This document shows positions 15,330-39,624 of a DNA stretch of 42,674 bases, piece after piece; position 1 is the stretch's first letter; each line of letters starts with the position of its first letter. Where the stretch lies: positions 1 to 42,674 of the forward strand of contig JAQXRN010000262.1 in the NCBI GenBank assembly GCA_029218545.1. The letters run 5' to 3'. This stretch comes from Bacillota bacterium. GTDB lineage: Bacteria > Bacillota > Clostridia > Peptostreptococcales > Anaerovoracaceae. The position numbers were made by a program, and so were the translations under genes. Below the pieces are notes generated by a model. That model was not told where the DNA came from. It was given only the letters and a program-made list of their open reading frames with translations, and did no database searches.

Positions 15330-16001
15330 ATGAGCTTAAGTAAACCATTAAATAAATATTTCGATCACACTATTCTTAAGGCTGATGCAAGCACAGCACA
15401 GATTGAAGAGCTTTGCAAGGAAGCTTTAGAATATGATTTTTATTCAGTATGCGTTAACTCTTCCAACGTGGCTCTTTGCAAGGAAATGCTTGAAGGTTCA
15501 GATGTGAAAGTATGTGCTGTAGTAGGATTCCCTCTAGGTGCATGCACTACAAAGACCAAGGTCTTCGAAACAGAAGAAGCTTGTAAGGACGGGGCAGGAG
15601 AAATCGACATGGTTATCAACATCGGTGCCCTGAAGGAAGGTGCAGTTGACTTCGTCAGAGAGGATATCAAGGCAGTTGTTGACACGGCAGCTAAATACGA
15701 CGCTATCGTCAAGGTAATCATAGAAACCTGCCTGTTAACTGACGATGAAAAGGTTCTTGCATGCCAGCTTTCTGAGGATGCTAAGGCTGCATTTGTTAAG
15801 ACATCAACAGGCTTCTCAACAGGTGGTGCTACTGCTTCAGATATCGCCCTGATGAGAAAAACAGTTGGTGATAGACTTCAGGTTAAAGCCAGCGGTGGAA
15901 TCAGAAGCTATGAAGCGGTTATGGCTATGATTGATGCCGGTGCTGACAGAGTCGGTGCATCTGCTTCCGTTGCAATTATGGAAGACAGCAAAACTCGTTA
16001 A
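15330..16001 (+). CDS. deoC: Deoxyribose-phosphate aldolase
   Basis: Class I aldolase splitting 2-deoxyribose-5-phosphate into glyceraldehyde-3-phosphate and acetaldehyde in deoxynucleoside catabolism. The 223-residue protein has [11 protein letters not shown] at the N-terminus, VVGFPLGA, the Schiff-base region [14 protein letters not shown] (Lys about 153) and the second catalytic Lys in VKASGGIR (about 183). No other deoxynucleoside salvage gene (deoD, pdp, cdd) is beside it. A 56-residue membrane peptide follows closely and is probably cotranscribed. Confidence 0.96.
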
Positions 16002-16022
16002 TTGGTAGAGGGGTGTTAAAAA

Positions 16023-16193
16023 ATGAAAGAAAGAACAATGAATTTATTCAAAGCCGCCTTTGGTCTGTTCGTGGCGGTGGGCTGCATTGCTCTGAAGGTT
16101 ACAGGAACAGTAGATAAGATGTATCCGTATATCGGCGCTGCATTAGGTCTGTTTGTAGCTGTAAACTTCGTAAAGAAAGCTTTTGAAGATTAA
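16023..16193 (+). CDS. Small membrane protein (56 residues)
   Basis: Too short for the ORF track. It starts MKERTMNLFK and has two hydrophobic stretches (FGLFVAVGCIALKV and YIGAALGLFVAVNFV), so a hairpin of two membrane helices is likely. It begins 22 bases after deoC with a GAGGGGTG ribosome site and ends just before a strong terminator, which supports it as a real second gene of the deoC transcript. No family or function is recognised. Confidence 0.65.
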   Translation: MKERTMNLFKAAFGLFVAVGCIALKVTGTVDKMYPYIGAALGLFVAVNFVKKAFED

Positions 16194-16205
16194 TAGCATA
16201 AAGCT

Positions 16206-16243
16206 AAGGCTCGTTCCGAGGAGAACGAGCCTTTTGATTTTTT
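16206..16243 (+). terminator. Terminator after deoC and the 56-residue gene
   Basis: A 10-bp stem AAGGCTCGTT / AACGAGCCTT is followed by TTGATTTTTTT. It separates the deoC unit from the convergent surface protein gene. Confidence 0.85.
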
Positions 16244-16270
16244 TGCTATTCAATTTGAAGCCTAGCCACA

Positions 16271-18892
16271 CTAGTCTTCTTTTCTCTTAAATACTACTGC
16301 TCCTGCACCTGCAATTGCCATTAATCCTAACCATGGCAACATGTTAGTTGTATCTCCGGTCTTTGGAGTTTCTCCTGAAAGAGGAACATTTGCAACCTCT
16401 GATGAAAGTGCTACTGCATATTCAGAGAAGTGTTCGATTTCGAATACTAAATTGCCATCTACAACCTTTGTAGGGATTCTCAGCATTTTACCATCATCGG
16501 CAATGTAAACGATTGTGTAATCGCTTAATTTCTTACCTTCTGCTGCTGTATATGGAAGCTTGACAGTTGCCTTACCGCCACCGAAGTCCTTGCTTATTAC
16601 CTTATCGCCGCAAAGGATTTCTGCAGAAAGGATTGTGTCAACATTTATACCCTTAATAGCCTTCTGCTGTTTCTCATTCAAATCATCTTTTGCAATCTTT
16701 ACAAGATTAAGGGTGATATTTTCACCATCAGCCTTGCCTGCAATAGTCTCAAGAGCTTTGCTGTCTAGGGTTACTGTTGCTGTCTTTGTTTCGATAGTAA
16801 GACCTTTCTTGCCATTTGCAACTTCCTTTACAGATGCAACTGGAAATTCAATGTAAGAAACATCCTGATCTTTTGGAACTGAAATCAGTACTTCAGCTTT
16901 GGATGCGTTATTTGCATCCTTGATTGCGTTAGTAATTTCGTCTTTTGTTACTTTAACTAAACCCTTTGTTGCAATTGCATAAGCTGAGAAAGATTTTGTC
17001 TTAAATGTAATTGTATTTGTTGCAGGATCATAAGAATCAATGTTAATGATTTCGTATTTGTCACCATCATGTAAATTGTGAACAATAACTATGTCATCGG
17101 CATTTACTCCATCTTCTAATTTGATAGTGATAGTAGCATATTCATCTAATTCATCGATTTTGTTTGACCATACATCATCCGCATCGTCTTTACCTTTATA
17201 GAATACATTGTATAAGTCAATATCCAGATAATCAGAAATTGTATATTCTCCTGCAGCATTTTCAAATCCTGCGATTTTATCTGAAGATAAAGTTGCATCG
17301 CTTACAGTCAGCTGTGCAGAACCACCTTCCAGCTTGTTGCCTAAATTGATGCTTCCTCCGGAAACTTTCTTGGAGTCAGCCTTCAATTCATCTCCTGTTT
17401 TAGTAAATTCCGCAGCAAAATGAACATTTGCATCCGGCATTGTGAAAGTATACTGATTGATTGTTTTCTGAGGTTCAAGTGGGAAACCGTTTGATTTTAC
17501 ACTTGTCAGCTGATATCCATATTCAGGTACGAATTCAAATACTACCTTAGAACCCGGAACAACCTTAGCCCATCCAAGACCATCCTTTGATACGCCATAT
17601 TCATCCGAATCTCTTCCCAGGTACTCTTCTTTATCAACTAATCTTCCATCTTCAGCATAAACAGCAATTATCTTTGCGCTGCCATGTTTTAGAAGCATGT
17701 CTTCAGCATAATCTGGGGCATCTTCGTTTGCACCAACATTTGCCCAGATAATTGTTCTATCTACAGTTGCATCCTGAGCTGCAGCACCTGCTATTGTATA
17801 CTTTGATGCACCCGGTACGGTAATGAAATATCCTTGATCTTTAACAAATTCTACAGACTCCATGCCTTCCTTATATGTAATACCATTGATAACAAATTCT
17901 GTAACAGGTTTAAATCCGAAGTCTTCCTGGAATCTTAATACATTTGTTTCAGTATCTTTATTTGTACCTGCTCCATTGATTGTTCCTTTAAACTCAACAC
18001 CGTCTGTTAAATCCACATTTTTATTGTTAATCCATGCATGCATAAAAGTGCCGGTGAAGCTCATGTCAAGTTCTATATTGTCACGTCCGCCTGCAGGATC
18101 ACCTCCTGGACCAGGTCCTGGAGGAGGATTATCTCCACCACCTTTTGCTTCAATTTCCAAATGCAACCAATCTCCAGGGAAATTCAAACCATTCAATGAA
18201 GCAACTTTGTTATTAACACTCAATGCATTATTGTAATTATCAGCGCCTCTTACAGTTATCTGCATAGTTTCAGCATCAAAACTGTTTCCTACAGTGAAAG
18301 TAACTGCATCAAGTTTATTTCTATCTACAGTAACCTTTCTATCTTCTGAAACAGTAGCACCATCGACTGTCAAGGTTACAGCTTTATTATCCACATTGAA
18401 GGTTACAACATTGCCGGAAATAGTAGCGTTGTCAAACTGCACTTCAACATTTGAATTCTGGTTTTCACCTTCGTTTCCACCGCCGCCGCGGTATTCAACA
18501 CAAACCTGATAGTTACTATCCTTCGTATATGTAAAGCTCCATCCTGCTTCTGTCTTCAAATTGTCGCAATTTATGGTTTTCTTTGTTCCATTCACATAGA
18601 ATTGGGTACCTGTAGTATCCAGTTCCTGATCTTGATTCGGAATTGCACGGACAGTAACGGTATCACCATCTGATACGCCGTTGATATCCCAAACCTTGCT
18701 TCCATTTAGCCCAATCCAATCACCACTGTTAACCTTATACTGAGTGTTTCCGTTCTGCCAATTCTTCACTTCAATCTGAACCGGAGAGTCCTGTGCAAAA
18801 GCAACCGTCGGAATGAACGTCAGTATCATGCACAATGCGAGCAGCAGGCTCAAAAATCGCCCTGTGCCATGAATCTTCTTCGTATTCTTCAT
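16271..18892 (-). CDS. Sortase-anchored cell-surface protein
   Basis: An 873-residue secreted protein. The signal peptide has basic residues, the hydrophobic core FLSLLLALCMILTF and a VAFAQD cleavage site around residue 33. The C-terminus has the cell-wall sorting signal TPKTGD, a hydrophobic helix (MLPWLGLMAIAGAGAVVF) and a KRKED tail. The TPKTG form, rather than LPxTG, is common in Clostridia. In between are beta-rich Ig-like segments, a Gly/Pro linker (PPPGPGPGGDPAGG, about 262) and a domain ending EYAVALSS near the anchor. No enzymatic motif is visible, so an adhesin or structural role is inferred. It is divergent from a double-HTH regulator with shared operator-like motifs. Confidence 0.88.
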   Translation of the reverse strand: MKNTKKIHGTGRFLSLLLALCMILTFIPTVAFAQDSPVQIEVKNWQNGNTQYKVNSGDWIGLNGSKVWDINGVSDGDTVTVRAIPNQDQELDTTGTQFYVNGTKKTINCDNLKTEAGWSFTYTKDSNYQVCVEYRGGGGNEGENQNSNVEVQFDNATISGNVVTFNVDNKAVTLTVDGATVSEDRKVTVDRNKLDAVTFTVGNSFDAETMQITVRGADNYNNALSVNNKVASLNGLNFPGDWLHLEIEAKGGGDNPPPGPGPGGDPAGGRDNIELDMSFTGTFMHAWINNKNVDLTDGVEFKGTINGAGTNKDTETNVLRFQEDFGFKPVTEFVINGITYKEGMESVEFVKDQGYFITVPGASKYTIAGAAAQDATVDRTIIWANVGANEDAPDYAEDMLLKHGSAKIIAVYAEDGRLVDKEEYLGRDSDEYGVSKDGLGWAKVVPGSKVVFEFVPEYGYQLTSVKSNGFPLEPQKTINQYTFTMPDANVHFAAEFTKTGDELKADSKKVSGGSINLGNKLEGGSAQLTVSDATLSSDKIAGFENAAGEYTISDYLDIDLYNVFYKGKDDADDVWSNKIDELDEYATITIKLEDGVNADDIVIVHNLHDGDKYEIINIDSYDPATNTITFKTKSFSAYAIATKGLVKVTKDEITNAIKDANNASKAEVLISVPKDQDVSYIEFPVASVKEVANGKKGLTIETKTATVTLDSKALETIAGKADGENITLNLVKIAKDDLNEKQQKAIKGINVDTILSAEILCGDKVISKDFGGGKATVKLPYTAAEGKKLSDYTIVYIADDGKMLRIPTKVVDGNLVFEIEHFSEYAVALSSEVANVPLSGETPKTGDTTNMLPWLGLMAIAGAGAVVFKRKED

Positions 18893-18923
18893 ATAGCTAG
18901 TACCTCCTTTGTTAGTTTAGCCT

Positions 18924-18934
18924 TATTGATAAGA
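18924..18934 (-). promoter_or_regulatory. TCTTATCAATA motif in the surface protein leader
   Basis: Read toward the surface protein gene, TCTTATCAATA lies between a TATAAT-like -10 (ATTATA at 18937-18942 on the plus strand) and the ribosome site. The same 11 bases occur at the equivalent place before the divergent regulator. Confidence 0.5.
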
Positions 18935-18970
18935 TAATTATATCAACGCATATTTTCCATTTCCATAAAG

Positions 18971-19001
18971 TTTCCGAATAGTCACATTGACATTTCGGAA
19001 A
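18971..19001. promoter_or_regulatory. Palindromic operator candidate between divergent genes
   Basis: TTTCCGAA and TTCGGAAA form perfect inverted arms around a 15-base centre, midway between the surface protein gene and the regulator gene. The AT-rich centre and spacing (arms about two helical turns apart) suit a dimeric regulator. Confidence 0.5.
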
Positions 19002-19027
19002 TCCCTGTTTTTTCGACAAAAAACAAG

Positions 19028-19052
19028 TATAATATAATTAGTCTTATCAATA
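19028..19052 (+). promoter_or_regulatory. -10 region and TCTTATCAATA motif before the double-HTH regulator
   Basis: Overlapping TATAAT hexamers (19028-19038) are followed by TCTTATCAATA (19042-19052) and then an AGGAGG ribosome site. The -35 is weak (TTCGAC), consistent with a controlled promoter. Confidence 0.5.
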
Positions 19053-19066
19053 TAGGAGGCGTTTAT

Positions 19067-20806
19067 ATGAATTTTCACGAAAAACTTAACCAATATATAG
19101 ATATACTCAATTGTACAGCGAAGGAATTAAGTGAGGCATCGGGTCTTTCTCCTGCAACCCTCAGCCGCTATCGCAGTGGTGAGCGTGTGCCGGAAATAAA
19201 CAGCGATACTTTCAATCAAATATGCATAGGGATTGCGACCCTTTTTGAGAGCAACTGCCCTGAAAAAAACATTTCAGAAGATATGGTAACGGAATCATTC
19301 TTAGAATGTCCTGATATTATTGCCACTGATAAAGAACACTTTAGAAAAAAGTTTAACACCTTATTTTCTGTTCTTGACATCAACATTACAAAGCTGTGCC
19401 AGTACACAAATTACGAGGTTTCAACTTTATTTAAAATCAGAAATGGTTCGCGAAACCCTTCAAATACTCCAAAGCTTGCTGCTGACATTGCAAGATATGT
19501 AGTGCGAGAAACAAGTAACGCAGAGGAAAAGGCCGCTCTAATAAACCTAATAGGTTGTTCCTCTGACGATGCCTCTGATACCGCCAAGTTCTTCGAATGC
19601 ATTAGAGATTGGCTCATCGCAGGGCAGTCAAGACCAAAAGATGATGTTGCTAATTTCCTCGAAAAGCTGGACACCTTCGATTTGAACGAATACATCAAGC
19701 TGATTCACTTTGATGAGCTTAAGGTTCCGTCGGTTCCTTTCCAGCTGCCAACTTCAAAAGCGTATTTTGGACTAAAAGACATGATGGCAAGTGAACTGGA
19801 TTTCCTCAAAGCAACAGTCCTATCAAAGTCTATGGAGCCGGTAATCATGTACAGCGATATGCCTATGGAAGAAATGGCAAAAGACCCGGAATTTCCTAAA
19901 AAATGGATGTTTGGCATGGCAATGATGCTAAAGAAGGGACTACATTTAAATCAGATACACAATCTGGACAGAACCTTTGAAGAAATGATGCTAGGTATTG
20001 AAAGCTGGATTCCTCTATATATGACAGGACAAGTTTCACCATATTATCTCAAAGAGGTGCAAAACAATGTATTTATGCACTTTCTAAAGGTTTCCGGTAC
20101 TGCGGCGCTTTCTGGGGAGGCCATATCCGGTTATCACAGCGATGGCAAATACTATCTTACAAAAAGCAAAGATGAAGTGGCATACTATAAAAAAAGAGCT
20201 CAGGAGCTGCTTTCAAATGCACTGCCCCTCATGAAAATATATAGGGAAGAAAATGCTGATGAGCTGAACGCTTTCCTAGCTGAAGATTTAAAATACGAAG
20301 GAAAGAGAAGAAGCATACTCTCTACACCTCCGCTGCATACTATGGATTTGCCGCTTTTAAACAAAATCCTTGAGAACAATAACATTTCAGACATGGAAAA
20401 AGAAAAGATATTGCAGTTTGTAAAGAAGGAAAAGGTTCTAATATCAGAGATGTTAAAAACTCATGTTATTGAAGATGAAATACCGCAATTCACAAAGGAA
20501 GAGTTCGAACAATATCCTGCTGTTCTGCCCCTTTCTGAAATATTCCTTGAAAAAGATATATACTATTCCTATGATGAATACATTGAACATATCCACCAAT
20601 CAGAGGTATTTCAGCAAAGCCATGAGAATTACACCATTAAGAAAACTTCAACATGTGCCTTTAGAAATCTTCAGATTCATATCCGCGAAGGCAAGTGGGC
20701 TATGGTTTCAAAGAGCAAAGCTCCGGCGATACACTTTGTAATTCATCATCCAAAGCTGCGTAATGCCATCGAAAATTTCATACCTCCGGTTGTGGAAAAC
20801 GACTGA
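19067..20806 (+). CDS. Large regulator with two N-terminal HTH domains
   Basis: A 579-residue protein. Residues about 5-55 form an XRE-like helix-turn-helix (TAKELSEASGLSPATLSRYRSGERVP). Residues about 95-145 form a second one (NITKLCQYTNYEVSTLFKIRNGSRNP). The remaining 430 residues have no domain I recognise; they are soluble and contain TKSKDEVAYYKKRAQELL and several aromatic-rich segments. It looks like a one-component regulator with an unknown sensor or effector domain. Its divergent placement next to the surface protein and the paired operator-like motifs suggest it controls that gene and itself. Close relatives are probably limited to gut Clostridia, but this cannot be checked here. Confidence 0.75.
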   Translation: MNFHEKLNQYIDILNCTAKELSEASGLSPATLSRYRSGERVPEINSDTFNQICIGIATLFESNCPEKNISEDMVTESFLECPDIIATDKEHFRKKFNTLFSVLDINITKLCQYTNYEVSTLFKIRNGSRNPSNTPKLAADIARYVVRETSNAEEKAALINLIGCSSDDASDTAKFFECIRDWLIAGQSRPKDDVANFLEKLDTFDLNEYIKLIHFDELKVPSVPFQLPTSKAYFGLKDMMASELDFLKATVLSKSMEPVIMYSDMPMEEMAKDPEFPKKWMFGMAMMLKKGLHLNQIHNLDRTFEEMMLGIESWIPLYMTGQVSPYYLKEVQNNVFMHFLKVSGTAALSGEAISGYHSDGKYYLTKSKDEVAYYKKRAQELLSNALPLMKIYREENADELNAFLAEDLKYEGKRRSILSTPPLHTMDLPLLNKILENNNISDMEKEKILQFVKKEKVLISEMLKTHVIEDEIPQFTKEEFEQYPAVLPLSEIFLEKDIYYSYDEYIEHIHQSEVFQQSHENYTIKKTSTCAFRNLQIHIREGKWAMVSKSKAPAIHFVIHHPKLRNAIENFIPPVVEND

Positions 20807-20822
20807 TATTATTTCATAAAAA

Positions 20823-20850
20823 ATGGTGTAGTCCAAAAGGGCTACACCAT
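20823..20850. terminator. Bidirectional terminator between regulator and metK
   Basis: A 12-bp stem (ATGGTGTAGTCC / GGGCTACACCAT, one T-G pair) with an AAAA loop lies between the two convergent stops. T-rich DNA follows on the plus strand and A-rich DNA precedes it. Confidence 0.8.
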
Positions 20851-20875
20851 AGTTTTCTTATTATTTTTTAGCAGA

Positions 20876-22060
20876 TTATAATCCAGCCTGAGCTCTTAAT
20901 GTTTCAGCCTTGTCTGTGTGTTCCCATGGAAGATCGATATCAGTTCTTCCAAAGTGGCCGTATGCTGCAGTCTGTCTGTAGATAGGTCTTCTTAAGTTTA
21001 AATCTCTGATAATTGCTGCAGGTCTTAAGTCGAAGTTCTTTTCAACTAATTCTGCAATCTTTTCATCATCAATCTTACCAGTTCCGAAAGTATCAACAAG
21101 AATTGATACAGGCTTTGCAACACCGATTGCATAAGCTAACTGAATTTCACACTTGTCAGCAAGTCCTGCTGCAACGATGTTCTTTGCTGCATATCTAGCT
21201 GCATAAGTTGCGGAACGGTCAACCTTTGTAGGGTCTTTTCCGGAGAAAGCACCTCCGCCGTGACGGGCATATCCACCGTAAGTATCTACAATAATCTTTC
21301 TTCCTGTTAAGCCGGAGTCTCCGTGAGGTCCGCCGATTACGAATCTGCCTGTTGGGTTAACGAAATACTTAGTTTCATCATCTAATAATTCAGCAGGAAT
21401 TACAGGCTTAATTACATGTTCAATAAGGTCAGCCTTAATCTGCTCCTGAGTAGCCTCAGGGTCGTGCTGAGTGGAAATAAGAACTGTATCGATTCTCTTA
21501 ACCTTGTCTCCGTCGTATTCAACTGTAACCTGAGTCTTGCCATCTGGTCTTAAATATGTCAGAGTGCCGTTCTTTCTCACTTCTGTAAGTCTTCTTGCCA
21601 GCTTGTGAGCAAGTGCGATTGGCATTGGCATTAATTCCGGTGTTTCGTTACATGCGAAGCCGAACATGATACCCTGGTCTCCTGCACCGATTGTATCGAT
21701 CTGGTCATCTAATGTGCCTTCCTTGTATTCAAGAGCCTTGTCAACTCCCATAGCGATATCTGCAGACTGTTCGTCAATTGCAGTAAGGATTGCACAAGTC
21801 TGGCCGTCAAAACCATATTTTGCGCGGTCATAACCGATGTCTGTGATAACCTTTCTAACAGTCTTTGGAATGTCAACATAGCAGCTTGTGCTGATTTCGC
21901 CCATTAACATTGCGTAACCTGTAGTAGTTGTAGTTTCGCAGGCAACTCTTCCATATGGGTCCTGCTCAAGAATAGCGTCTAAGATAGCATCTGAAATCTG
22001 GTCACACATTTTATCAGGATGCCCTTCAGTTACTGATTCTGATGTAAATAGTCTTTTCAT
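20876..22060 (-). CDS. metK: S-adenosylmethionine synthetase
   Basis: Makes SAM from methionine and ATP. The 394-residue protein has all family landmarks: [20 protein letters not shown] at the N-terminus, [12 protein letters not shown] (about 117), the P-loop-like [21 protein letters not shown] (about 235) and [17 protein letters not shown]. It is preceded by a GGGAGGA ribosome site and a SAM-I riboswitch with terminator, so transcription should stop when SAM is abundant. SAM is also the cofactor that KamA, encoded further right, uses for radical chemistry. Confidence 0.98.
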
Positions 22061-22124: not shown

Positions 22125-22145
22125 CATAATTACTTAGTTAACGTT

Positions 22146-22253
22146 CCTCATCTTTCAGAAAAAATCTGTAGGATTTAGCACCTTTTATGTTCTTATAAAC
22201 ACCTAGGTTGCCGGGCTTCATAGGGCCTATTCCCTCTGCCTCTCTTAATAAGG
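22146..22253 (-). ncRNA. SAM-I (S-box) riboswitch aptamer
   Basis: The minus strand shows the S-box core: AAGAGAGGCAGAGGGA, then GCCCTATGAAGCCCGGCAACC, then AAGGTGCTAAATCC, closed by GATGAGG pairing with CCTTAT at the 5' end. It is about 110 bases long and sits before a terminator and metK. Binding of SAM in this family promotes termination. Confidence 0.95.
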
Positions 22254-22281
22254 ATTTCAATTTTTAAAACTTGCACATAAT

Positions 22282-22328: not shown

Positions 22329-22356
22329 TTGTTTTTTTACCGAAATAAGGTATACT
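22329..22356 (+). promoter_or_regulatory. Promoter of the hypothetical/rsgA run
   Basis: TTGTTT, a 16-base spacer and TATACT lie on the plus strand. The ORF track places a TTG 'start' on this -35 box, which argues against that start. Confidence 0.6.
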
Positions 22357-22388
22357 TTATATATACACTTTTATATGAGGTATTAAAC

Positions 22389-23675
22389 GTGACTAACAAA
22401 AATATTAAGAATCCATTTAAGGTTATTCCGGGAGGTCTTTCAGAAAAGCATTCTGACAGCTATAAGGAGTTCGTTTCAGCACACATTACCGACACAAGAC
22501 TTATGGGCGTAGTCGGCATGACGATACATTGGAAGCTTCCTAAGAATACCCGCTTCAGAGATTTTTATCAGTTCTATTATTTTGATGCAGAGGAAAACGG
22601 CTTCGACACTTACAAGAGCCTGCTATGTTCAGGAGAACCCCACGAAATGGAGGAACTGACAAAACTAGAAAACAGAATAATCGGTGGCCTTGGCGCTCAT
22701 AAAATCCAAATAAGCGAAAGAGAAGCAGTCTACATGGTTCAAAGCTATGTGGAATTAACTCTCAAAAGCAACCTTCCTTTACCTGGAAACAGAGATGAAT
22801 ATGAGTTCTTGCTTGCTCCAAGGGTTGAACTTACGGAAAAAGAAAGCTTTATTTTGATGTGCAAGCAATGCCCTATTATCGATTCTCCATATCAGGTTAT
22901 CAATTACTTTCTTATGCGCTGCTTCGGCAAAGATTTCGGTGCAGCCAAATTCCTGACCAAGGGCTATGTTAGAACTAACCTTTTCCCTGAGCACAAGGGT
23001 GCAACACTGCTTCGCAATGTAATAGAGGAAGCGCCTGACGAGATAAGCGGTTCTAATACAAGATATCACTCAACTGATGACGATAAGGATTTTGGCACCT
23101 TTGATACGTTGAAATCATATATGTGCGAATCCCTCATTGAATACAGCGGCAAGTATTTTCTTCTTGTCACACAGGTTACTCTGGACCAGCTGAAGGTGGT
23201 TAAGTATGAAAAGATTTCTTCCTTCAGGGTCACCACTCAAGAAGCATCTCTCATGACTTCAAGAACTGAATTTGTTACGGTGACCGATCTAATTCCTTCT
23301 GCCCCTCCTTTTGACATCAGCGCCACCAAGCTGACCAGAAAGGCTATGACTACGGAATATGATAATGGCACCTTGTTTATGGTTTTCCAACCTGATAACG
23401 ACCATGTCAAGAAGAAGACATATATTCTTAACGATGATGTACTTGGGGTGTACTTTCTGGTGGATAACAGCCAGCTCATTCTGGCAGCCTACAGCCTTGA
23501 AAACATACAGGCAATGGAGGATGACCTTGCACACTCATATATGGCACCTTTTGTGGTTCCTGTGTCTAAATACGAATTCAAGGATCCCGTCCTCTATGAC
23601 TTTATGAACAGTATCTTTGAAGATTTTGAGGACTTTGTAGAAACAATTTCGCTGCCTCCAAAGGACGAAGAGTAA
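22389..23675 (+). CDS. Hypothetical protein (428 residues)
   Basis: I do not recognise the family. The track starts at a TTG inside the promoter; a GTG at 22389 with GAGGT just upstream gives MTNKNIKNPFKVIPGG and is more likely. The protein is soluble, with no signal or membrane helix, is rich in aromatic and acidic residues and ends in a short acidic tail (FEDFEDFVETISLPPKDEE). The middle holds CKQCPIIDSPYQVINYFLMRCFG and a phase rich in beta-strand-forming residues. It probably shares a transcript with rsgA 28 bases downstream. Confidence 0.8.
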   Translation: MTNKNIKNPFKVIPGGLSEKHSDSYKEFVSAHITDTRLMGVVGMTIHWKLPKNTRFRDFYQFYYFDAEENGFDTYKSLLCSGEPHEMEELTKLENRIIGGLGAHKIQISEREAVYMVQSYVELTLKSNLPLPGNRDEYEFLLAPRVELTEKESFILMCKQCPIIDSPYQVINYFLMRCFGKDFGAAKFLTKGYVRTNLFPEHKGATLLRNVIEEAPDEISGSNTRYHSTDDDKDFGTFDTLKSYMCESLIEYSGKYFLLVTQVTLDQLKVVKYEKISSFRVTTQEASLMTSRTEFVTVTDLIPSAPPFDISATKLTRKAMTTEYDNGTLFMVFQPDNDHVKKKTYILNDDVLGVYFLVDNSQLILAAYSLENIQAMEDDLAHSYMAPFVVPVSKYEFKDPVLYDFMNSIFEDFEDFVETISLPPKDEE

Positions 23676-29304: not shown

Positions 29305-29961
29305 TTATTCTTCTTCCATTGCCTTCATGTTAGGGTCAAAGTGAAGTTCACAGCCTGTTGCAGCCTGGATATCTTCCTTAGTGAAGTCAGGATGTAATTC
29401 AGTAACCCAAATTCCATCTTCTCTAACTTCCATAACACCCATTTCAGTGATGATCTTGGATACGCACTTTTCAGCTGTTAAAGGAAGTCTGCATTCCTTT
29501 AAAATCTTATGTGCACCCTTCTGAGTGTGAAGCATTACTACGATTACTTCTGGGCAACCTGCACAAAGGTCCATAGCACCACCCATACCAGCAACCTTCT
29601 TGCCAGGTACGATCCAGTTAGCTAAGTCTCCGTTTTCAGCAACTTCCATAGCACCAAGAACTGTTGCTCTTACGTGTCCACCTCTTACAAGGCCGAAAGA
29701 TTCAGCTGTGTCGAAGAATTTTGCTCTTGGAAGAGCAGTTACATAAGTACCACCTGAGTTGATGATATCTACATCTAAATTGTCTGCAGTTGCAATCTGG
29801 TCGATACCTGCGAATCCGTTTTCGGAGTGGCAAGTAACCATGATGTCCTCTGGAATGTAGTCAGCAACCATTGTTGGCAGACCGATTCCTAAGTTGATGA
29901 AGTCACCATCTCTGAATTCTTTTGCGCATCTCTTTGCGATTCTTGCTTTTAAATCTGCCAT
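29305..29961 (-). CDS. atoA: Acetoacetate/butyryl CoA-transferase subunit beta
   Basis: The catalytic subunit of a class I CoA-transferase. The active-site Glu lies in CHSENGFAGI (about residue 47). Also present are FINLGIGLPTMVADYI at the N-terminus, NSGGTYVTALPRAKFFDTAESFGLVRGGH and GMGGAMDLCAG. In lysine fermentation it moves CoA from butyryl-CoA to acetoacetate, releasing butyrate. Its start overlaps the alpha subunit end by 13 bases, showing coupling. The size (218 residues) is normal. Confidence 0.93.
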   Translation of the reverse strand: MADLKARIAKRCAKEFRDGDFINLGIGLPTMVADYIPEDIMVTCHSENGFAGIDQIATADNLDVDIINSGGTYVTALPRAKFFDTAESFGLVRGGHVRATVLGAMEVAENGDLANWIVPGKKVAGMGGAMDLCAGCPEVIVVMLHTQKGAHKILKECRLPLTAEKCVSKIITEMGVMEVREDGIWVTELHPDFTKEDIQAATGCELHFDPNMKAMEEE

Positions 29962-30674
29962 CTTTCTTCTCCTTCCACAATTGCATCAACTAATACGCCA
30001 GCTACAGCGAAGTAATCTGGATCGATTTCGTTGATTTCAACGATCTTTTCAGGTGCAATAACTGTGTGCTTTGCAGCTCCAGCCATTACATAGTTGAAGT
30101 TCTTTGTAGTCTTCTTGCAGTAGTAGTTACCGAACTTGTCAGCAACGGATGCTCTGATGAAAGCATAATCTGCATGTAAAGGCATTTCGAATAAGTACTT
30201 CTTACCTTCGATTTCCATTACCTGTTTCTTTCTGCCTAATTCATCAAGTTCTGTTTCCATTGGAGTAGCAACACCTGTTGGAGTTAATACGCCACCAAGA
30301 CCATAAGCTGCTGCTCTGATCTTTTCTGCAAGAGTTCCCTGTGGAACTAAAGTATACCTAAGAGTACCTTCTGCAACCTGTTCGTTAATCATTGGGTTAA
30401 CGCCGATGTGAGAAGCGATTAAATGGTCAACCATGTGGTTTTCTAAAAGCTTACCGATACCTCTAGCTGTCTTTCCTCCGAATTCGCCTGCTGGCTGTCC
30501 TGGAGCAAGTCCACCGTCATTACCGATAACTGTAAGGTGCTTAACACCCTTTCTTACTAAAGCGTCCATGATAGCTTCTGGAGAACCTGTTCCTAAGAAA
30601 CCACCAACCATGATAGTCATTCCATCTTTAACGCCTGCTACTGCTTCATCAGCAGTCATAATTTTGTTAATCAT
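29949..30674 (-). CDS. atoD: Acetoacetate/butyryl CoA-transferase subunit alpha
   Basis: The partner of AtoA. The 241-residue protein has the class I alpha-subunit landmarks: MTADEAVAGVKDGMTIMVGGFLGTGSPEAIMDAL (oxyanion-hole GGF loop, about 25), TVIGNDGG, and YAFIRASVADKFGNYYCKKTTKNFN. It forms an operon only with atoA, because a terminator after kamE and a sigma-A-type promoter (30762-30790) separate it from the kam genes. Its location beside kamDE supports a butyrate-producing lysine pathway rather than another use. Confidence 0.93.
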   Translation of the reverse strand: MINKIMTADEAVAGVKDGMTIMVGGFLGTGSPEAIMDALVRKGVKHLTVIGNDGGLAPGQPAGEFGGKTARGIGKLLENHMVDHLIASHIGVNPMINEQVAEGTLRYTLVPQGTLAEKIRAAAYGLGGVLTPTGVATPMETELDELGRKKQVMEIEGKKYLFEMPLHADYAFIRASVADKFGNYYCKKTTKNFNYVMAGAAKHTVIAPEKIVEINEIDPDYFAVAGVLVDAIVEGEERWQI

Positions 30675-30761
30675 GTCTTACAATCCCTTTCTATAAGAAT
30701 ATTATTATTAAAAAGCATAGATTCAGGAAGAATTGAATATTTCTCAAAACCTCGTCACATT

Positions 30762-30790
30762 ATAATACACCAAAAAAAACCATGATGCAA
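30762..30790 (-). promoter_or_regulatory. Sigma-A-type promoter of atoDA
   Basis: TTGCAT, a 17-base spacer and TATTAT lie on the minus strand about 90 bp before atoD. No sigma-54 element is visible in this gap. Confidence 0.65.
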
Positions 30791-30807
30791 GAAAAAACGT
30801 CTATTTT

Positions 30808-30845
30808 CTAAAAGCAAAGGCGCTGAGCAAACTCCCAGCACCTTC
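30808..30845 (-). terminator. Terminator of the kdd-kam operon
   Basis: On the minus strand AAGGTGCT and AGCGCCTT (one U-G pair) form a stem followed by TTGCTTTT, about 35 bases after the kamE stop. Confidence 0.7.
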
Positions 30846-30880
30846 TTATTCAGCTTTTAATCAAACTTTTACCGCTTTGA

Positions 30881-31669
30881 TTATCTGTCAGCGATGTTTG
30901 CCTTCTTTTCCCAGCCACGTTTCTGAACTTCCTGCATAATGTAGGACATTACGTGGTCAGCATACTTGCCAGGGCCGAAGCCTGCATCGTATCCTAATTC
31001 CTGAGCTAATTCGTGGGAAATTCTTGGACCACCGCAAGTTAAGATAACCTTGTCACGAAGGCCTTCAGCTTCCATTAATTCAGCCATCTTAGTAAGGTTC
31101 ATGATGTGGATATCCTTCTGAGTTACAGTCTGAGATACTAAAATAGCATCTGCATTTACTTCCTTAGCTTTTGCAATCAGAGCTTCGCAAGGAACCTGTG
31201 AACCCATGTTATATGCTACAACGTTCTTATATCTTTCAAGACCGAAGTGTCCGTGGAAACCCTTCATCTGAATGATAGCATCGATACCTACTGTGTGAGC
31301 ATCGGATTCGATGGATGCACCAACAACTACGATGTCTCTGCCGATGTTTTCACCAATCCATTCTCCGCACTGTACTCTGTCGAATACTTCACCTTCAACC
31401 TTTGGTACTACGATCTGAGTATAGTCGATTGTAGGCTGAGCGTTTCCATATACGTTAAAGAATGTATATCCTGTTGTAAGTTCACAGTAGTAAGCTACGT
31501 TTGGTTCTTCTAAACCTAATTTCTTTGCGTACTGCTTAGCACATTCTTCTGCTTCTTCACCGTAAGGTACTGGAAGAGTGAATGCAAGCTGAACTTTACC
31601 GTCATTTAATGCGTCGCCGTATGGCTTAACTTTTGTTAAATCTACCTGTGTATTTGCGCATGTTGTCAT
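30881..31669 (-). CDS. kamE: Lysine 5,6-aminomutase beta subunit
   Basis: The small, cobalamin-binding subunit of the B12/PLP enzyme that moves the terminal amino group of beta-lysine, giving 3,5-diaminohexanoate. The 262-residue protein has the DxHxxG cobalamin motif (SDAHTVG, lower axial His) and, eleven residues later, the Lys of IQMKG that binds PLP in the family. This spacing (His then Lys +11) matches my recollection of the characterised enzyme. The C-terminal Rossmann-like part (DAILVSQTVTQKDIHIMNL, ILTCGGPRIS) holds the corrin tail. It directly follows kamD with a 14-base gap, so the subunits are co-produced. Confidence 0.96.
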   Translation of the reverse strand: MTTCANTQVDLTKVKPYGDALNDGKVQLAFTLPVPYGEEAEECAKQYAKKLGLEEPNVAYYCELTTGYTFFNVYGNAQPTIDYTQIVVPKVEGEVFDRVQCGEWIGENIGRDIVVVGASIESDAHTVGIDAIIQMKGFHGHFGLERYKNVVAYNMGSQVPCEALIAKAKEVNADAILVSQTVTQKDIHIMNLTKMAELMEAEGLRDKVILTCGGPRISHELAQELGYDAGFGPGKYADHVMSYIMQEVQKRGWEKKANIADR

Positions 31670-31683
31670 TGTATTACACCTCC

Positions 31684-33237
31684 CTATTCGTGATCCATAA
31701 ATAATGCGATAAATGGATTGAAGTAGTTTTCACCCTTAGTGCAAACGCCTTCAAGACCATGTCCACCGTCGAACGGACGCTTAACTCCACCGAAGATACC
31801 CTTTTCGATAGTTGTGAATAAACCTTCTTTTTCAACTTCAGCAAGAAGTTCATCAGCCTTAGCAAGAACTTCCTGAGCTCTCTTCTGGATGATACCGTCT
31901 TTCTTGAATTCGATTTCATCGCCGATGTGTCTGCAGTTGTTGAAGATGTACTGAGCGTTTTCGATAGCTAAGTATCTATCCTGCATTAATGGAGTGTGAA
32001 TAGCTTCTGTTAACATACCTGTTAATAGGATTGACTGGTTTGTCCATACAGTTACAAGGTTGAATAATGCATCCTGCAGGTGACCCTTGAAGATGTTACC
32101 TGTCATGAACTTTGTAGGAGGCATGTATTTTAATCTTGCCTTAGGGAAGATTTCTCTTGCCATCTGAGCCTGTGACAGTTCAAGAAGGAATCCGTCTTCT
32201 GTGTTAGGATCCATTTCGAATGCGTGACCAAGACCCATCTGTTCTTCAGGAATGTTTGCAAGTACTGCGAACTGTTCGTTGATGAACTGGGAAGCTGTTA
32301 CAGTGTGAGCAGCTTCGATAGCATCATCTGTTGTTAAGTAGTTATCTTCACCGGAGTTAAAGATAATTCCGCAGTAACCGATGATAACTCTGGACATGAA
32401 CTGGTCAACTAATGTTCTCTGCATGTTGATGTCTCTGAAAAGAATACCGTAGATAGCGTCATTTAACATAACGTCTAATCTTTCTAATGCACCCATAGCA
32501 GCGATTTCAGGCATGCACATACCGGATGAGTAGTTACATAATCTGATATATCTGCCAACTTCTTCACCAACTTCGTCAAGAGCTTTTCTCATGATTCTGA
32601 AGTTTTCCTGAGTAGCATATGTACCACCGAAACCTTCAGTTGTTGCACCATAAGGTACATAGTCAAGTAATGACTGAGCTGTTGTTCTGATTACAGCGAT
32701 GACATCAGCACCCTGTCTTGCAGCAGCCTGAGCCTGGATAACGTCTTCGTAAATGTTACCTGTAGCAACGATTACGTAGATATAAGGTTCTTTACCTTCG
32801 CCAATTGTGTCAAGATATTCCTGACGCTTAGCTTTCTGCATATCAATTCTTTCAAAAGTAGCCTTAATTGCAGGTTTTAAAGCTTCAGCAGCTTCTTCCT
32901 GTGAGCATGTAGGCAACTTAGTGATTTCTAATTTGCCGGCAGCAACTTCTTCAGCGATTTCCTGAGGAGTCTTGCCAGTCTGTACAATAGCATTACCCAT
33001 CCAGTATGCTGCACCTGTTGGAAGAGCACCAGCTTCTTTTAAATGGTCAACTACAACGTTTGGAAGTGGGTTGTCAACTTCGTCTACTCCATCTACGCCT
33101 AACAGTCTAAGAATTGTTCTTTCTGTTGAAACTGTTGTATGACGATCAATAAAGTCCTGCATATCGTGAGCAATGTTTGCTGCATGCTGACGAGCGCTGT
33201 CAACAACCTTTTGGTCAAGATTTAATTTGCTTTTCAT
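31684..33237 (-). CDS. kamD: Lysine 5,6-aminomutase alpha subunit
   Basis: The large TIM-barrel subunit (517 residues), providing the substrate and PLP-phosphate pocket. The N-terminus reads KLNLDQKVVDSARQHAANIA; recognisable blocks are GAAYWMGNAIVQTGKTPQEIAEEV, VIVATGNIYEDVIQAQAAARQGADVIAVIRTTAQS, YSSGMCMPEIAAMGALERLDVML and AFEMDPNTEDGFLLELSQAQ. All match the KamD family. It sits between kamC and kamE in the operon, with an 11-base gap to the kamC stop. Codon choice is strongly restricted (Arg as AGA, for example), as in its neighbours, suggesting high expression. Confidence 0.96.
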   Translation of the reverse strand: MKSKLNLDQKVVDSARQHAANIAHDMQDFIDRHTTVSTERTILRLLGVDGVDEVDNPLPNVVVDHLKEAGALPTGAAYWMGNAIVQTGKTPQEIAEEVAAGKLEITKLPTCSQEEAAEALKPAIKATFERIDMQKAKRQEYLDTIGEGKEPYIYVIVATGNIYEDVIQAQAAARQGADVIAVIRTTAQSLLDYVPYGATTEGFGGTYATQENFRIMRKALDEVGEEVGRYIRLCNYSSGMCMPEIAAMGALERLDVMLNDAIYGILFRDINMQRTLVDQFMSRVIIGYCGIIFNSGEDNYLTTDDAIEAAHTVTASQFINEQFAVLANIPEEQMGLGHAFEMDPNTEDGFLLELSQAQMAREIFPKARLKYMPPTKFMTGNIFKGHLQDALFNLVTVWTNQSILLTGMLTEAIHTPLMQDRYLAIENAQYIFNNCRHIGDEIEFKKDGIIQKRAQEVLAKADELLAEVEKEGLFTTIEKGIFGGVKRPFDGGHGLEGVCTKGENYFNPFIALFMDHE

Positions 33238-33248
33238 CCTTTTTCTCC

Positions 33249-34895
33249 TTACTTAATGTACTTTTTCGCACCTTCAATTATTTCAGAGCTGATTCCCAGC
33301 ATCTTAGCAATATTCAGAGCATCCTTAGGCACTTCACCTTGCTTTTCTACTCTATACAGACGATAGTCCATATATTTCGATATTATATTTATCCTGTCAC
33401 GACGCTTCGCATACTGAATCTCTCTGTTAAGAAGAGTAAAGTCCGCATCAGCAAGCCCTCTAACCTGCATGTTTACCACTCCTTCAGTTTCAGTTACTGT
33501 TTCAAAGTGTGTCGTAATCAGGGACATATACGGTTTTTTAATAAGATAATCGACTAGAGATTTTGTAAGTGCAAGTCCTTCTACAGGATTTGTACCTGAC
33601 GCAATCTCGTCAATGAGGAGCAGAGTTCTTTCAACGCTGTGGTCAAGAATTTCCTTTAATTCTTCCATCTCACTGCCAAAGCTTGACAGCCCTCTTTCAA
33701 GAGACTGGCTGTCTCCGATAAGAATCTGCATATAATTGGATAATCCCAGTCTGGCTTTTTTTGCCGGCACAAAGAATCCATATTGTGCAAGTATGGTAAC
33801 CTGCCCGGTAAGCTTAAGGGAAATGGTCTTTCCACCCATATTTGCACCGGTAATGCATGTCACTCCATCCTTTAATTCAATGGAAACAGGGCAATACGGC
33901 TTACCCTTTGATTTTAATATATCTTCAACCTGAAGATTTCTGCCATCGGTCACCTCGATTACATGTTCATCTACTATCTCAGGCTTTGTACATTCATGTT
34001 TGATCGCATACAATGCCTTACCTAAGACTAAATCTAATGCACCGATTTTTTCACAGTTTTCAAGAAGAACATCTGCATGCTTTGCAATTTCCATTGAAAG
34101 TCTGCGGCAAACAACCGCTTCCTCTTCTTCAAGCTCTGCATTTATCTCATCCATCTGGCGCATGATTTGGAAAACCGCCTCATTTGCCTTAAGCTGGAAG
34201 GTTATCGACATGTAATCCTGGTCAACAATCTCAAGTTCTTCGATGCTTTTTATCTTTTCAAGTTCTGCACTTGTCTTGGAAACCACCACATCGAACTTCG
34301 GTGTCAGCATTACTCCATGTTCTTTTCTCAGTTCTTCCCTTTTTGCCTTCTGTTCCCTGCGGATTGCAAGTTCGTACTCTCTCTTTTTACCTCTCAGTTC
34401 CCTGAGTTTCTCGGAAAACTCATCATATATGTAAAAAGTATTGATTCTGTCCATTCTTGGGTCCAATACATTCAGAAGCTCTTCAGTATCTTCCAAAATG
34501 TACTCCCCTGGAATCAACGGTTCATGATCTTTTACTGTAAGCTGCAGTAACTTTCTCATGTTCAAAAGAAGGCTTTTTATTTCAAAGATTTCAACGACAG
34601 CCAAGGTCTGATTTGCAGCACGGCTTATGGAATGGGATACTTCCTTTATCATCATAAACAGCTGCTGAATCTGATCTACTGTTTTTTCGTTATTGCGGAC
34701 AAATTCTACCATATTGTCCAGCTTTTCAAATTCTTCTCTAAGCTCCTCTTCCTCTCCGGGAAAGTAAGGTTTCAATTCCTTAAGCTGTTTCTTCCCAAAG
34801 GGAGTGTTCAGATCTATGCTCTGCATCACATAGTCCAATCCTGTTTCGCTTCTGGTCTTAATGTTAGCCAATCTGCGATTTGAGCCCATTCTCAT
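33249..34895 (-). CDS. kamC: MutS-like ATPase, lysine 5,6-aminomutase reactivase KamC
   Basis: A 548-residue relative of MutS lacking the mismatch-recognition domain. It has a coiled-coil/clamp region (about 50-330), then the ABC-type ATPase: Walker A GANMGGKTISLK, signature-like SSFGSEMEELKEIL and Walker B LLIDEIASGTNPVEG. In lysine fermenters this gene travels with kamB and is assigned to reactivation of the B12 aminomutase when its cofactor is damaged; that role is taken from family naming, not seen here. Overlap or near-contact with kamB and kamD supports a shared complex. The start lies 11 bases after GGAGG. Confidence 0.85.
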   Translation of the reverse strand: MRMGSNRRLANIKTRSETGLDYVMQSIDLNTPFGKKQLKELKPYFPGEEEELREEFEKLDNMVEFVRNNEKTVDQIQQLFMMIKEVSHSISRAANQTLAVVEIFEIKSLLLNMRKLLQLTVKDHEPLIPGEYILEDTEELLNVLDPRMDRINTFYIYDEFSEKLRELRGKKREYELAIRREQKAKREELRKEHGVMLTPKFDVVVSKTSAELEKIKSIEELEIVDQDYMSITFQLKANEAVFQIMRQMDEINAELEEEEAVVCRRLSMEIAKHADVLLENCEKIGALDLVLGKALYAIKHECTKPEIVDEHVIEVTDGRNLQVEDILKSKGKPYCPVSIELKDGVTCITGANMGGKTISLKLTGQVTILAQYGFFVPAKKARLGLSNYMQILIGDSQSLERGLSSFGSEMEELKEILDHSVERTLLLIDEIASGTNPVEGLALTKSLVDYLIKKPYMSLITTHFETVTETEGVVNMQVRGLADADFTLLNREIQYAKRRDRINIISKYMDYRLYRVEKQGEVPKDALNIAKMLGISSEIIEGAKKYIK

Positions 34896-34915
34896 CTGTC
34901 AAAGCACCTCCCAAA

Positions 34916-35935
34916 TTACACTCTTACATCAATCACAGGTATTGCAGGTAACGCTTCCTGCATTGCAGACACCAGTGCTTCGCTGTCAAAGGAATAGCCT
35001 CCCGGAGCCCAAGGATTAACTGTAATTGCTGCAATTTCGATATTCTTAAGCACATTGACTCTGAAACCTTTTTTTCTCCACAGACCCCAGTCCATGGCGC
35101 TCAGGAAGATTTTAGTAGGATCCTTGAGAACGAACTTCACTCTTCTAAGCTTCATAAGGTTAATTTCTGAAATCACGCTATTGGTGAATGCACCGGGTAT
35201 GTATACATACTCTGTATCTTCGTCAATTGCATCATCTATGTATCTTGATGAGCCAAGTCCTGTAGCTAAATCCAGCTTCCTGCATCCGCCATTTTTATCT
35301 ACAATCATAATCTTGTCATCAAAGTTGTTTTCTTCTATTATTCTTCTCGCTTCGCATTCTTCCAACTCCGGAATGGAATACAGATTTACAACGTGAGCTG
35401 TTTCATCTACCACTCTCTTCATGCTGCGCGAAAGCACCGCTCCAGTTGAAAGGATAATTGCGTCCGATGTTTCCGGAGACGCGATGGATTTTCTATCAAT
35501 TGCACCATCGATTAAAATAATGCTGCATCCATATTCGAACATTTCCTGACACACCCTTTTGGTATCCATAGCTGCAGGTGTACCTGCAATCTGTACATAT
35601 CCGCTGTCAGCCACTCTGCAGATAAGCAAGTCACCCATAGGTGTGGAAAATCTGGTCTTTCTTAAAATTTCAAGGCCTGCATCAGCCTTTTCGTAAAGCT
35701 GTGTAGGCACTGTAACTATTGTATCTTGGTCTAAGTAGATTCTAGGCTTTTCTGTTCCTGTAACCAGGTCCTGGCTTTCACCATCACGGCCGATAGAAGT
35801 GACGCCGAGAAAAATACCATCGTCAATTGCTTCTTCTATCAAAAAGTTCATTGCAGTGGTTTTACCGGCATTTTTTGCCATACCTACGATAGAAAGTGTC
35901 TTATATTTAGTTGACAGGTCATACAGTAGCCCCAT
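34916..35935 (-). CDS. kamB: Lysine 5,6-aminomutase reactivase subunit KamB
   Basis: The P-loop partner of KamC. The track start (36103) would overlap kamA and translate a hairpin; I prefer the ATG at 35935, which follows AGAGGA and gives 339 residues (MGLLYDLSTKYKTLSI). The N-terminal Walker A is VGMAKNAGKTTAMN, with switch-like SIGRDGESQDLV and IILIDGAIDRKSIASPE further on. It is conserved beside kamA/kamC in lysine fermenters. The family function is presumed reactivation or assembly of the aminomutase. A strong intercistronic hairpin precedes it. Confidence 0.83.
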   Translation of the reverse strand: MGLLYDLSTKYKTLSIVGMAKNAGKTTAMNFLIEEAIDDGIFLGVTSIGRDGESQDLVTGTEKPRIYLDQDTIVTVPTQLYEKADAGLEILRKTRFSTPMGDLLICRVADSGYVQIAGTPAAMDTKRVCQEMFEYGCSIILIDGAIDRKSIASPETSDAIILSTGAVLSRSMKRVVDETAHVVNLYSIPELEECEARRIIEENNFDDKIMIVDKNGGCRKLDLATGLGSSRYIDDAIDEDTEYVYIPGAFTNSVISEINLMKLRRVKFVLKDPTKIFLSAMDWGLWRKKGFRVNVLKNIEIAAITVNPWAPGGYSFDSEALVSAMQEALPAIPVIDVRV

Positions 35936-35958
35936 TTTATCTTTTCCTCTTTTCATAC

Positions 35959-35988
35959 CTATAGGGAGACCTGCCGGTCCCCCTATAG
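35959..35988 (-). promoter_or_regulatory. Intercistronic hairpin between kamA and kamB
   Basis: Thirteen-base arms (CTATAGGGGGACC / GGTCTCCCTATAG, one G-U pair) with a four-base loop lie between the kamA stop and the kamB ribosome site. No T-run follows, so it is not a standard terminator. It may stabilise or process the upstream kdd-kamA message. Confidence 0.6.
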
Positions 35989-36020
35989 ATGATGTTTTTA
36001 TTTTTCTGCTGAAAGAATAA

Positions 36021-37280
36021 TTATTTCTTATTTCTTTCGTGTCTAGCAAGGTTGGATGGTTCCATGAATCTGATTTCTGGACCTTCACCAAGAGCAGAAA
36101 CACCCTGGTACTTGTATTCCTTCTTGCCTGTGCAGTAGTCGCACTTGCATTCTAAGTCTGGTAACTGAGGTTCAGTGTATGTAGTAATGATACCTTCGTA
36201 GTTTCTTAAGATTACCTTGTGTGGAGTCTGAGAAATTACGTACTGTGGCATTACTGGAGTCTTACCACCACCACCAGGAGCGTCAACTACGAATGTAGGA
36301 ACTGCGTAACCTGAAGTGTGTCCTCTTAAACCTTCCATGATTTCGATACCCTTTGAAACAGGAGTTCTGAAGTGTTCGATACCCATTGAAAGGTCGCAGA
36401 TGTAGATGTAGTAAGGTCTTACTCTGTTCTTAACTAGAGTATGCATTAAGTCTCTCATGATGTGCTTACAATCGTTAACACCTCTTAAAAGAACTGACTG
36501 GTTACCTAAAGGAATACCAGCATCTGCAAGCTTTCTAACAGCTTCCATAGCGTCTGGAGTCATTTCCTTTGGATGGTTGAAGTGAGTATTTAACCAGATT
36601 GGGTGATACTTCTTCAGCATTTCAACTAACTTGTCAGTAATTCTCATTGGCATTACAACTGGAGTTCTTGAACCGATTCTTACGATTTCTACATGAGGAA
36701 TCTTTCTTAATTCGGAAATGATGTATTCTAAAACATCGTCTTCTACGCAAAGAGCGTCACCACCGGAAAGAAGTACGTCTCTAACCTGTGGAGTCTTTCT
36801 GATGTATTCGATACATGCATTGATATCTTCCATTGATCTTGCACCATCAGTTTCACCAGCAAGTCTTCTTCTTGTGCAGTGTCTGCAGTACATTGAGCAC
36901 TGGTCAGTGATTAAGAATAAAACTCTGTCTGGATATCTGTGAGTTAAACCAGGAGCTGGAGAGTCAGCATCTTCGTGAAGAGGGTCTAAGTCATCAGCTT
37001 CGGATCTGTGCATTTCCTTTAAAGTAGGAACTGCCTGCATTCTTACTGGACATCTTGGATCGTCTGGGTCCATGATGGAAGCATAGTAAGGAGTGATACC
37101 TACTCTGAAACCACCGATAACCTTTTCGATTTCTTCCTTTTCCTGTTCAGTTAAATTTACAACCTGACAAATATCTTCAACAGTTGTTAATCTGTTTTCT
37201 ACCTGCCAATGCCAGTCATTCCACTGTTCATCAGTAACGTCTTTGAATAAAGGAATGTCTTTCCAATTTCTTACAGCCAT
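36021..37280 (-). CDS. kamA: Lysine 2,3-aminomutase
   Basis: A radical-SAM, PLP-dependent enzyme converting L-lysine to L-beta-lysine, the first step of the pathway. The 419-residue protein has the CxxxCxxC cluster CSMYCRHC (about residues 128-135), the PLP-binding Lys in APGGGGKTPVMP (about 340) and the zinc-binding C-terminal CKCDYC motif. The length is normal for the Clostridium enzyme. It lies downstream of the two kdd copies and upstream of kamB. Its SAM demand links it to the riboswitch-controlled metK in the same window. Confidence 0.97.
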   Translation of the reverse strand: MAVRNWKDIPLFKDVTDEQWNDWHWQVENRLTTVEDICQVVNLTEQEKEEIEKVIGGFRVGITPYYASIMDPDDPRCPVRMQAVPTLKEMHRSEADDLDPLHEDADSPAPGLTHRYPDRVLFLITDQCSMYCRHCTRRRLAGETDGARSMEDINACIEYIRKTPQVRDVLLSGGDALCVEDDVLEYIISELRKIPHVEIVRIGSRTPVVMPMRITDKLVEMLKKYHPIWLNTHFNHPKEMTPDAMEAVRKLADAGIPLGNQSVLLRGVNDCKHIMRDLMHTLVKNRVRPYYIYICDLSMGIEHFRTPVSKGIEIMEGLRGHTSGYAVPTFVVDAPGGGGKTPVMPQYVISQTPHKVILRNYEGIITTYTEPQLPDLECKCDYCTGKKEYKYQGVSALGEGPEIRFMEPSNLARHERNKK

Positions 37281-37333
37281 ATTAATCTCCTTAAATTTGT
37301 TAATTTGATTTGGTTTTTATAAATGCACTTAAA

Positions 37334-38407: not shown

Positions 38408-38537
38408 TTTCCTCCTAGAAAATCTTATAAATTTTGAACCCGAATCGCTCGAGTACAACTTACCAATTTAATTATATTACAACCCCATTGATTTTTCTAT
38501 ATAAAAGTATGAAACGCTTTGCAATATAGTACAAGAA

Positions 38538-39575: not shown

Positions 39576-39624
39576 TGTTTATTTGTCTCCTTTTCTTTTC
39601 AAAACTTCGCTATAAATATATTAA

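Follow-up and report, generated by a model that had tools for sequence, protein, structure and literature searches.

Regulators of the Cro/C1 (XRE) type and local autoregulators are commonly repressors, and for most surface proteins of gut Clostridia we know of no regulator. Among the sensors of small molecules, the archaeal sugar-sensing TrmB family is defined by a DNA-binding domain (PF01978) together with an effector-binding domain (PF11495), and palindromic operators and autoregulation have been reported for its members (PMC4158304). A literature search, outside the coverage of which lie most subscription journals, returned nothing on a regulator family that joins two helix-turn-helix (HTH) domains to a phospholipase-D-like (PLD) fold.

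Here we analyzed a stretch of 42,674 nucleotides from a Bacillota bacterium (the window), in which the gene for such a protein and the gene for a surface protein diverge from a common intergenic region. From motifs arranged symmetrically between the two genes, a preliminary description had proposed that one regulator controls a cell-surface protein and itself, possibly switching between two states. Comparison with relatives makes control of both genes by one regulator probable, through a symmetric site that is conserved with the same kind of gene pair. Our preferred reading, to which we assign a probability of about 0.55, is that of a single-target sensor-regulator which activates itself and one surface protein via one shared operator.

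The divergent gene pair and its regulator protein

The features of the locus are collected in Table 1. For the regulator promoter, an overlapping alternative −10 box is present at 19033-19038. In a search with Rfam, neither leader matched a riboswitch or any other known RNA family, and the sole match in the window was a SAM riboswitch upstream of metK (22145-22254, minus strand, 80.1 bits).

Table 1. Features of the divergent locus, in window coordinates
Feature	Position	Strand	Basis or remark
Divergent target gene, 873-aa surface protein	16271..18892	-	Signal peptide, InlB-type repeat domain, C-terminal LPXTG-type anchor
AGGAGG, ribosome-binding site of surface protein	18903..18908	-	Sequence
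TCTTATCAATA in surface-protein leader	18924..18934	-	Unconserved, probably incidental
-10 box TATAAT, surface-protein promoter	18937..18942	-	27 nt from operator model edge
Putative operator, 31-bp imperfect palindrome TTTCCGAATAGTCA-CAT-TGACATTTCGGAAA	18971..19001	.	Profile 21.8 bits (window not a seed); family consensus
-10 box TATAAT, regulator promoter	19028..19033	+	25 nt from operator model edge
TCTTATCAATA in regulator leader	19042..19052	+	Unconserved, probably incidental
AGGAGG, ribosome-binding site of regulator	19054..19059	+	Sequence
Regulator gene, 579 aa	19067..20806	+	Two Cro/C1 HTH domains and a C-terminal domain of predicted PLD fold
HTH1, residues 3-53	19073..19225	+	Pfam HTH_26 and HTH_3 above cut-off; AlphaFold helices 18-25, 29-37
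HTH2, residues 89-140	19331..19486	+	AlphaFold helices 107-114, 118-126; aligned recognition region; inner half-site covariation
C-terminal domain, residues 191-579, predicted two-lobed PLD-like fold	19637..20803	+	AlphaFold, Foldseek; presumed sensor

Within the genus, deoC and metK stay adjacent, and the interval between them (15330-22060 in the window) is variable. Two species (L184 and L185) lack a gene pair there, a third (L183) has other genes, including a membrane-protein-like open reading frame (ORF), and a fourth carries at this site an unrelated 845-aa secreted anchored protein without a neighboring regulator (L182:1373-3910, minus strand). The stretch has the appearance of a site where accessory genes are inserted or lost, and the gene pair is apparently an accessory unit at a variable site. 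Elsewhere in the window, positions 29305-41905 hold lysine-fermentation genes (lysine 5,6-aminomutase, lysine 2,3-aminomutase, CoA transferase, a MutS-like protein, and a sigma-54 activator), and a 448-aa ORF at 22329-23675 (plus strand) has no Pfam or NCBIfam match.

The regulator scored 27.9 bits against HTH_26 (cut-off, 22) and 26.8 bits against HTH_3 (cut-off, 23), and an HTH_3 match was obtained in all 58 of 58 family members at E values up to 0.1. The Pfam match to a Cro/C1 HTH spans residues 6-53. The recognition helix of HTH1 comprises residues 29-37, in the SPATLSRYRSGER region, and that of HTH2 residues 118-126. A search of solved structures by sequence returned nothing beyond weak HTH matches. 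Modeled alone with AlphaFold, residues 191-579 gave a mean pLDDT of 90.0 and a pTM of 0.86, and the best Foldseek matches of this model all belong to the phospholipase-D superfamily (polyphosphate kinase, E = 4.1e-7; TrmBL2 5box, 3.3e-6; phospholipase D2, 1.8e-5); the TrmB sugar-binding domain 2f5t gave 4.8e-3. TM-scores stayed modest, at about 0.4-0.58 on the target where one lobe was matched, and the predicted PLD-like assignment is therefore one of fold-level similarity. The HKD motif HxKx4D was present in 0 of 79 family proteins, and an enzyme of the HKD kind is therefore unlikely. As modeled, the C-terminal domain, with a PLD fold and lacking the catalytic motif, is likely a sensor that gates regulation.

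Relatives, secreted partners and the intergenic palindrome

A scan of species genomes placed relatives of the regulator at no fewer than 143 loci, and the best 80 of the 143, at 42-69% protein identity, were kept. Their hosts are mostly Clostridia (Ruminococcus, Lachnospiraceae, Oscillospiraceae) and also include Adlercreutzia and other Eggerthellaceae. In the order to which the window belongs, 41 of 395 genomes gave a match at 1e-30, many of these being distant single-HTH relatives. Full-length copies mostly occur once per genome, with two copies in 1 of the 16 genomes examined. No match to the regulator was found by tblastn in the phage and plasmid collections, and an origin from either source was rejected on this ground.

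The gene facing the regulator nearly always encodes a secreted product: by a simple rule, a signal peptide was assigned to 59 of 64 divergent neighbors of at least 150 aa, compared to 120 of 456 other ORFs at the same loci. These neighbors fall into 27 sequence clusters and many unrelated families, among them dockerin, BspA-type leucine-rich repeat, InlB-type repeat, DUF4214 and anchored proteins. The regulator is conserved and the protein that it faces is not. Three distant relatives (L025, L026 and L028) match from about residue 85 on and thus comprise a single HTH (HTH2) and the C-terminal domain; their partners are divergent secreted proteins of 1379-1569 aa, and TTTGTCA/TGACAAA repeats lie between the genes. 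These loci suggest that pairs of this kind form a wider family. At two other loci, on contigs labeled Lachnoclostridium (L053) and Oscillospiraceae (L066), the intergenic regions and partners are near-identical, which could reflect recent transfer of the whole pair or an error of binning or naming. In Ruminococcus bicirculans 80/3 (L057:6001-7748) the regulator is split near residue 525 into two adjacent frames; either the copy is broken or the sequencing was at fault.

All of the motifs in the preliminary description are exact and lie where it had placed them. TTTCCGAA (18971-18978) and TTCGGAAA, its complement (18994-19001), are the outer half-sites with which a longer inverted repeat, TTTCCGAATAGTCA/TGACATTTCGGAAA, begins and ends; the arms of this repeat match at 12 of 14 pairs and are 3 nt apart. 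The inner half-sites are GTCA (18981-18984) and TGAC (18988-18991). This palindrome outscored all 40 dinucleotide shuffles of its own upstream region. It had been suggested that the motifs be sought before other surface genes of the genome; no second copy of the 31-bp palindrome was found there with up to 3 mismatches, which rules out a regulon elsewhere in the genome at that stringency. In one further genome, searched with a related pattern, the only matches were at the gene pair's own site.

A generic palindrome search, carried out locus by locus, exceeded all shuffles in only 19 of 81 loci and was too weak alone, so a profile was adopted instead. It was built from 19 other loci, with the window site excluded, and scored the window site at 21.8 bits; since the seeds were picked by eye, the fair part of the test consists of the many non-seed loci, the window included. 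Scores above 7.8 bits were obtained in 52 of 81 regulator upstream regions, with a maximum of 6.8 among 317 control segments. The family consensus reads ATTtCCrattTGTCAn(n)TTGACAaatYGGaAAT, and the inner core alone occurs upstream in 43 of 81 loci compared to 147 of 1930 control segments. Symmetric covariation links outer positions 4 and 29, which are complementary in 28 of 38 cases where 15.5 are expected. No profile match was obtained in 22 of 81 loci; the core is present in 5 of these 22, three loci without a match (L102-L104) have a diverged palindrome visible by eye, and the operator went unrecognized in about 14 of 81. On these comparisons the palindrome is the conserved, putative operator of the regulator-target pair, and it would represent an intergenic docking site maintained across gut bacteria of two phyla.

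The division of the composite site between the two HTH domains was approached by covariation. For the inner half-site, covariation was stronger with HTH2 residues than with the C-terminal domain (p = 0.0008; HTH2 recognition helix, p = 0.005). That HTH2 reads the inner half is in agreement with the single-HTH relatives, in which HTH2 is retained alongside a repeat of the TTTGTCA type. Taken together, the residues of HTH1 showed no significant covariation with the outer half-site (p = 0.26), and a domain-wide signal was rejected; residue 31 of the HTH1 recognition helix is kept as a hint, as it tracks the third base of the outer half-site on several branches of the tree (more than one), residue T accompanying base T in 20 of 27 cases and residue V accompanying base A in 7 of 9. 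Because shared ancestry inflates all of these associations, they are supporting and not decisive.

Promoter spacing and the direction of regulation

On the partner side, the operator edge lies 26-28 nt from the −10 box in 20 of 29 non-redundant loci, where 500 shuffles gave a mean of 2.2 and a maximum of 8. On the regulator side, a distance of 25-27 nt was found in 15 of 40 loci (null mean, 2.9; maximum, 8), and further, smaller groups occur at 29-31 and 36-42 nt, the latter about one helical turn further; most regulator-side distances fall within 25-30 nt. Given these spacings, the operator abuts the −35 position on both sides. Spacing is near-equal on the two sides in the window (27 nt and 25 nt) and in 10 other non-redundant loci. 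Among promoters with an exact TATAAT, a −35 element with at least 5 of 6 matches was found in 1 of 50 that are phased with the operator and in 19 of 90 others at the same loci; the mean −35 match was 3.02 and 3.40, respectively, a small difference (p = 0.04). In a cruder earlier comparison, the −35 regions of operator-phased promoters were near background. A perfect TTGACA stands at −35 on the partner side in two loci. The fixed spacing together with the rarity of good −35 elements therefore favors activation in both directions over repression, and the symmetry of the spacing suggests joint activation of both genes rather than alternation.

The mechanism that we propose begins with a dimer of the double-HTH protein, which would bring four HTH domains onto the four half-sites, HTH1 presumably on the outer TTTCC/GGAAA and HTH2 on the inner GTCA/TGAC. 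With the protein in place, the operator would lie immediately upstream of the −35 position at each of the divergent promoters, near-equally distant from the two, and the regulator may recruit RNA polymerase both ways, activating the surface-protein gene and its own; recruitment is proposed because both promoters are usually without a good −35 box. The PLD-fold domain would sense and gate this activation. The regulator thus probably switches on both genes together from a single docking site. Cross-locus comparison is the basis for the operator, its conservation, the fixed spacing, the pairing with secreted proteins and the two HTH domains, whereas the PLD fold is a model prediction; binding of the operator by the double-HTH protein is what we infer from this, and activation is suggested less firmly.

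The same regulator and operator could instead repress both genes. Polymerase might, for instance, be kept off two close divergent promoters, or a co-factor might take part, and the C-terminal domain would relieve repression on ligand binding. We take this to be a serious possibility, if an unlikely one. Cro/C1 regulators and local autoregulators are often repressors, as is generally known, and the conservation of the operator and the gene pairing fit repression equally well; however, the operator keeps clear of the −10 box and is located, at distances fixed on either side, upstream of the −35 position, and near-consensus −35 boxes are rare, whereas retention of a good one would be expected under repression. 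The two-state behavior raised in the preliminary description, in which one promoter is activated and the other repressed so that surface protein and regulator alternate, draws on the divergent layout with a single operator between the genes and on the regulator-side spacings (25-31 and 36-42 nt), which vary more than those on the partner side, so that the sides may respond differently. Divergent-promoter switches are also reported for Gram-positive plasmids (pLS20, PMC4207663). Near-equal spacing in the window and 10 other loci nevertheless favors the same action on both promoters, and no second operator was found; alternation of this kind is improbable.

The remaining motif, TCTTATCAATA, follows a TATAAT and precedes an AGGAGG in each leader, as had been described. 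There are exactly two exact copies in the window and 8 in the whole genome. The string common to both leaders is longer than reported, ATATAATTA-(G)-TCTTATCAATA, and the probable transcription start is spanned by the left copy, while the right copy lies at or just past it. The motif could serve as an RNA leader element, as a second site for a regulator or, being an 11-bp inverted repeat, as part of an invertible promoter segment: it is perfect in both leaders and extends the similarity of the −10 boxes, and two dinucleotide-shuffled leaders share an 11-mer with a probability of 0.0048, before post-hoc correction for motif choice. Conservation in relatives with the same gene pair had been set beforehand as the test of the motifs, and here TCTTATCAATA failed, being absent from the corresponding place in all relatives (the nearest, with one mismatch, are single occurrences elsewhere), so that it was rejected as a conserved element. 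The longest string shared by both leaders at other divergent loci is at most 9 nt, the shared −10 context recurs nowhere else in the genome, the other six copies included, and no Rfam family lies in the two leaders. As regards an invertible segment, a Pfam scan of window genes showed no recombinase among those covered, and inversion would swap two already similar promoters. A role for TCTTATCAATA is thus very unlikely; the motif is probably incidental, either chance or a recent local duplication, and stands outside the mechanism. Of the symmetric layout, the palindrome is what holds across relatives. It is more improbable still that another, genome-wide regulator binds the palindrome and that the double-HTH protein is unrelated to it. 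Binding by the latter is deduced from comparison, which leaves room for such a protein, but the palindrome occurs once in the window's genome, the related pattern is confined to the pair's site in the further genome, in Clostridia and Eggerthellaceae alike the operator travels with the regulator gene, and HTH2 covaries with the inner half-site of that operator.

Under the preferred reading of joint activation, positive autoregulation would permit bistability, and each locus could be a self-reinforcing bistable switch because activation would include the regulator itself. A broader and quite tentative proposal, which we think doubtful as a whole, is that of an undescribed family of one-component regulators in which two Cro/C1 HTH domains are joined to a catalytically dead PLD-fold sensor and act through a bidirectional operator of four half-sites on an ever-changing surface protein, possibly as a bistable on/off switch responding to an envelope-derived or nutrient ligand. 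The family spans at least 143 loci, and most of those examined face a secreted or anchored protein of varying family. As the operator is readable from sequence, it becomes possible to test directly what the regulator targets, where it binds and whether it activates or represses, and secreted proteins that are otherwise unrecognizable are marked as one regulatory class. The loci also offer a natural series for how two HTH domains of one chain divide a composite operator.

Comparison with described regulators

The regulator resembles Cro/C1 (XRE) proteins in the type of its DNA-binding domain (Pfam HTH_3/HTH_26) and differs from them in carrying two HTH domains in tandem on a single chain, together with a 390-residue domain of predicted PLD fold; its putative operator comprises four half-sites and is located upstream of the −35 position in each of two promoters. 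With TrmB/TrmBL2 it is predicted to have the C-terminal fold in common, the Foldseek probability against the TrmB effector fold being 1.00 at a TM-score of about 0.4 on the target, a similarity of fold only. Its DNA-binding part is Cro/C1 and not a winged HTH, it has two PLD-like lobes and a different class of target, and PF01978 and PF11495 are absent both from its Pfam result and from the 25 commonest families of 58 members. Enzymes of the PLD superfamily (polyphosphate kinase, phospholipase D, NucT) are the best structural matches of the C-terminal domain, and the family differs from them in the absence of HxKx4D from 79 of 79 proteins. Two features of divergent activators that share an operator, a fixed upstream distance and a weak −35 at both promoters, were both found here. 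Like the conjugation switch reported for pLS20 (PMC4207663), the locus would place one local regulator over two divergent promoters; it differs in a single conserved palindrome at near-equal spacing to both promoters and in a target that is a surface protein of no fixed family.
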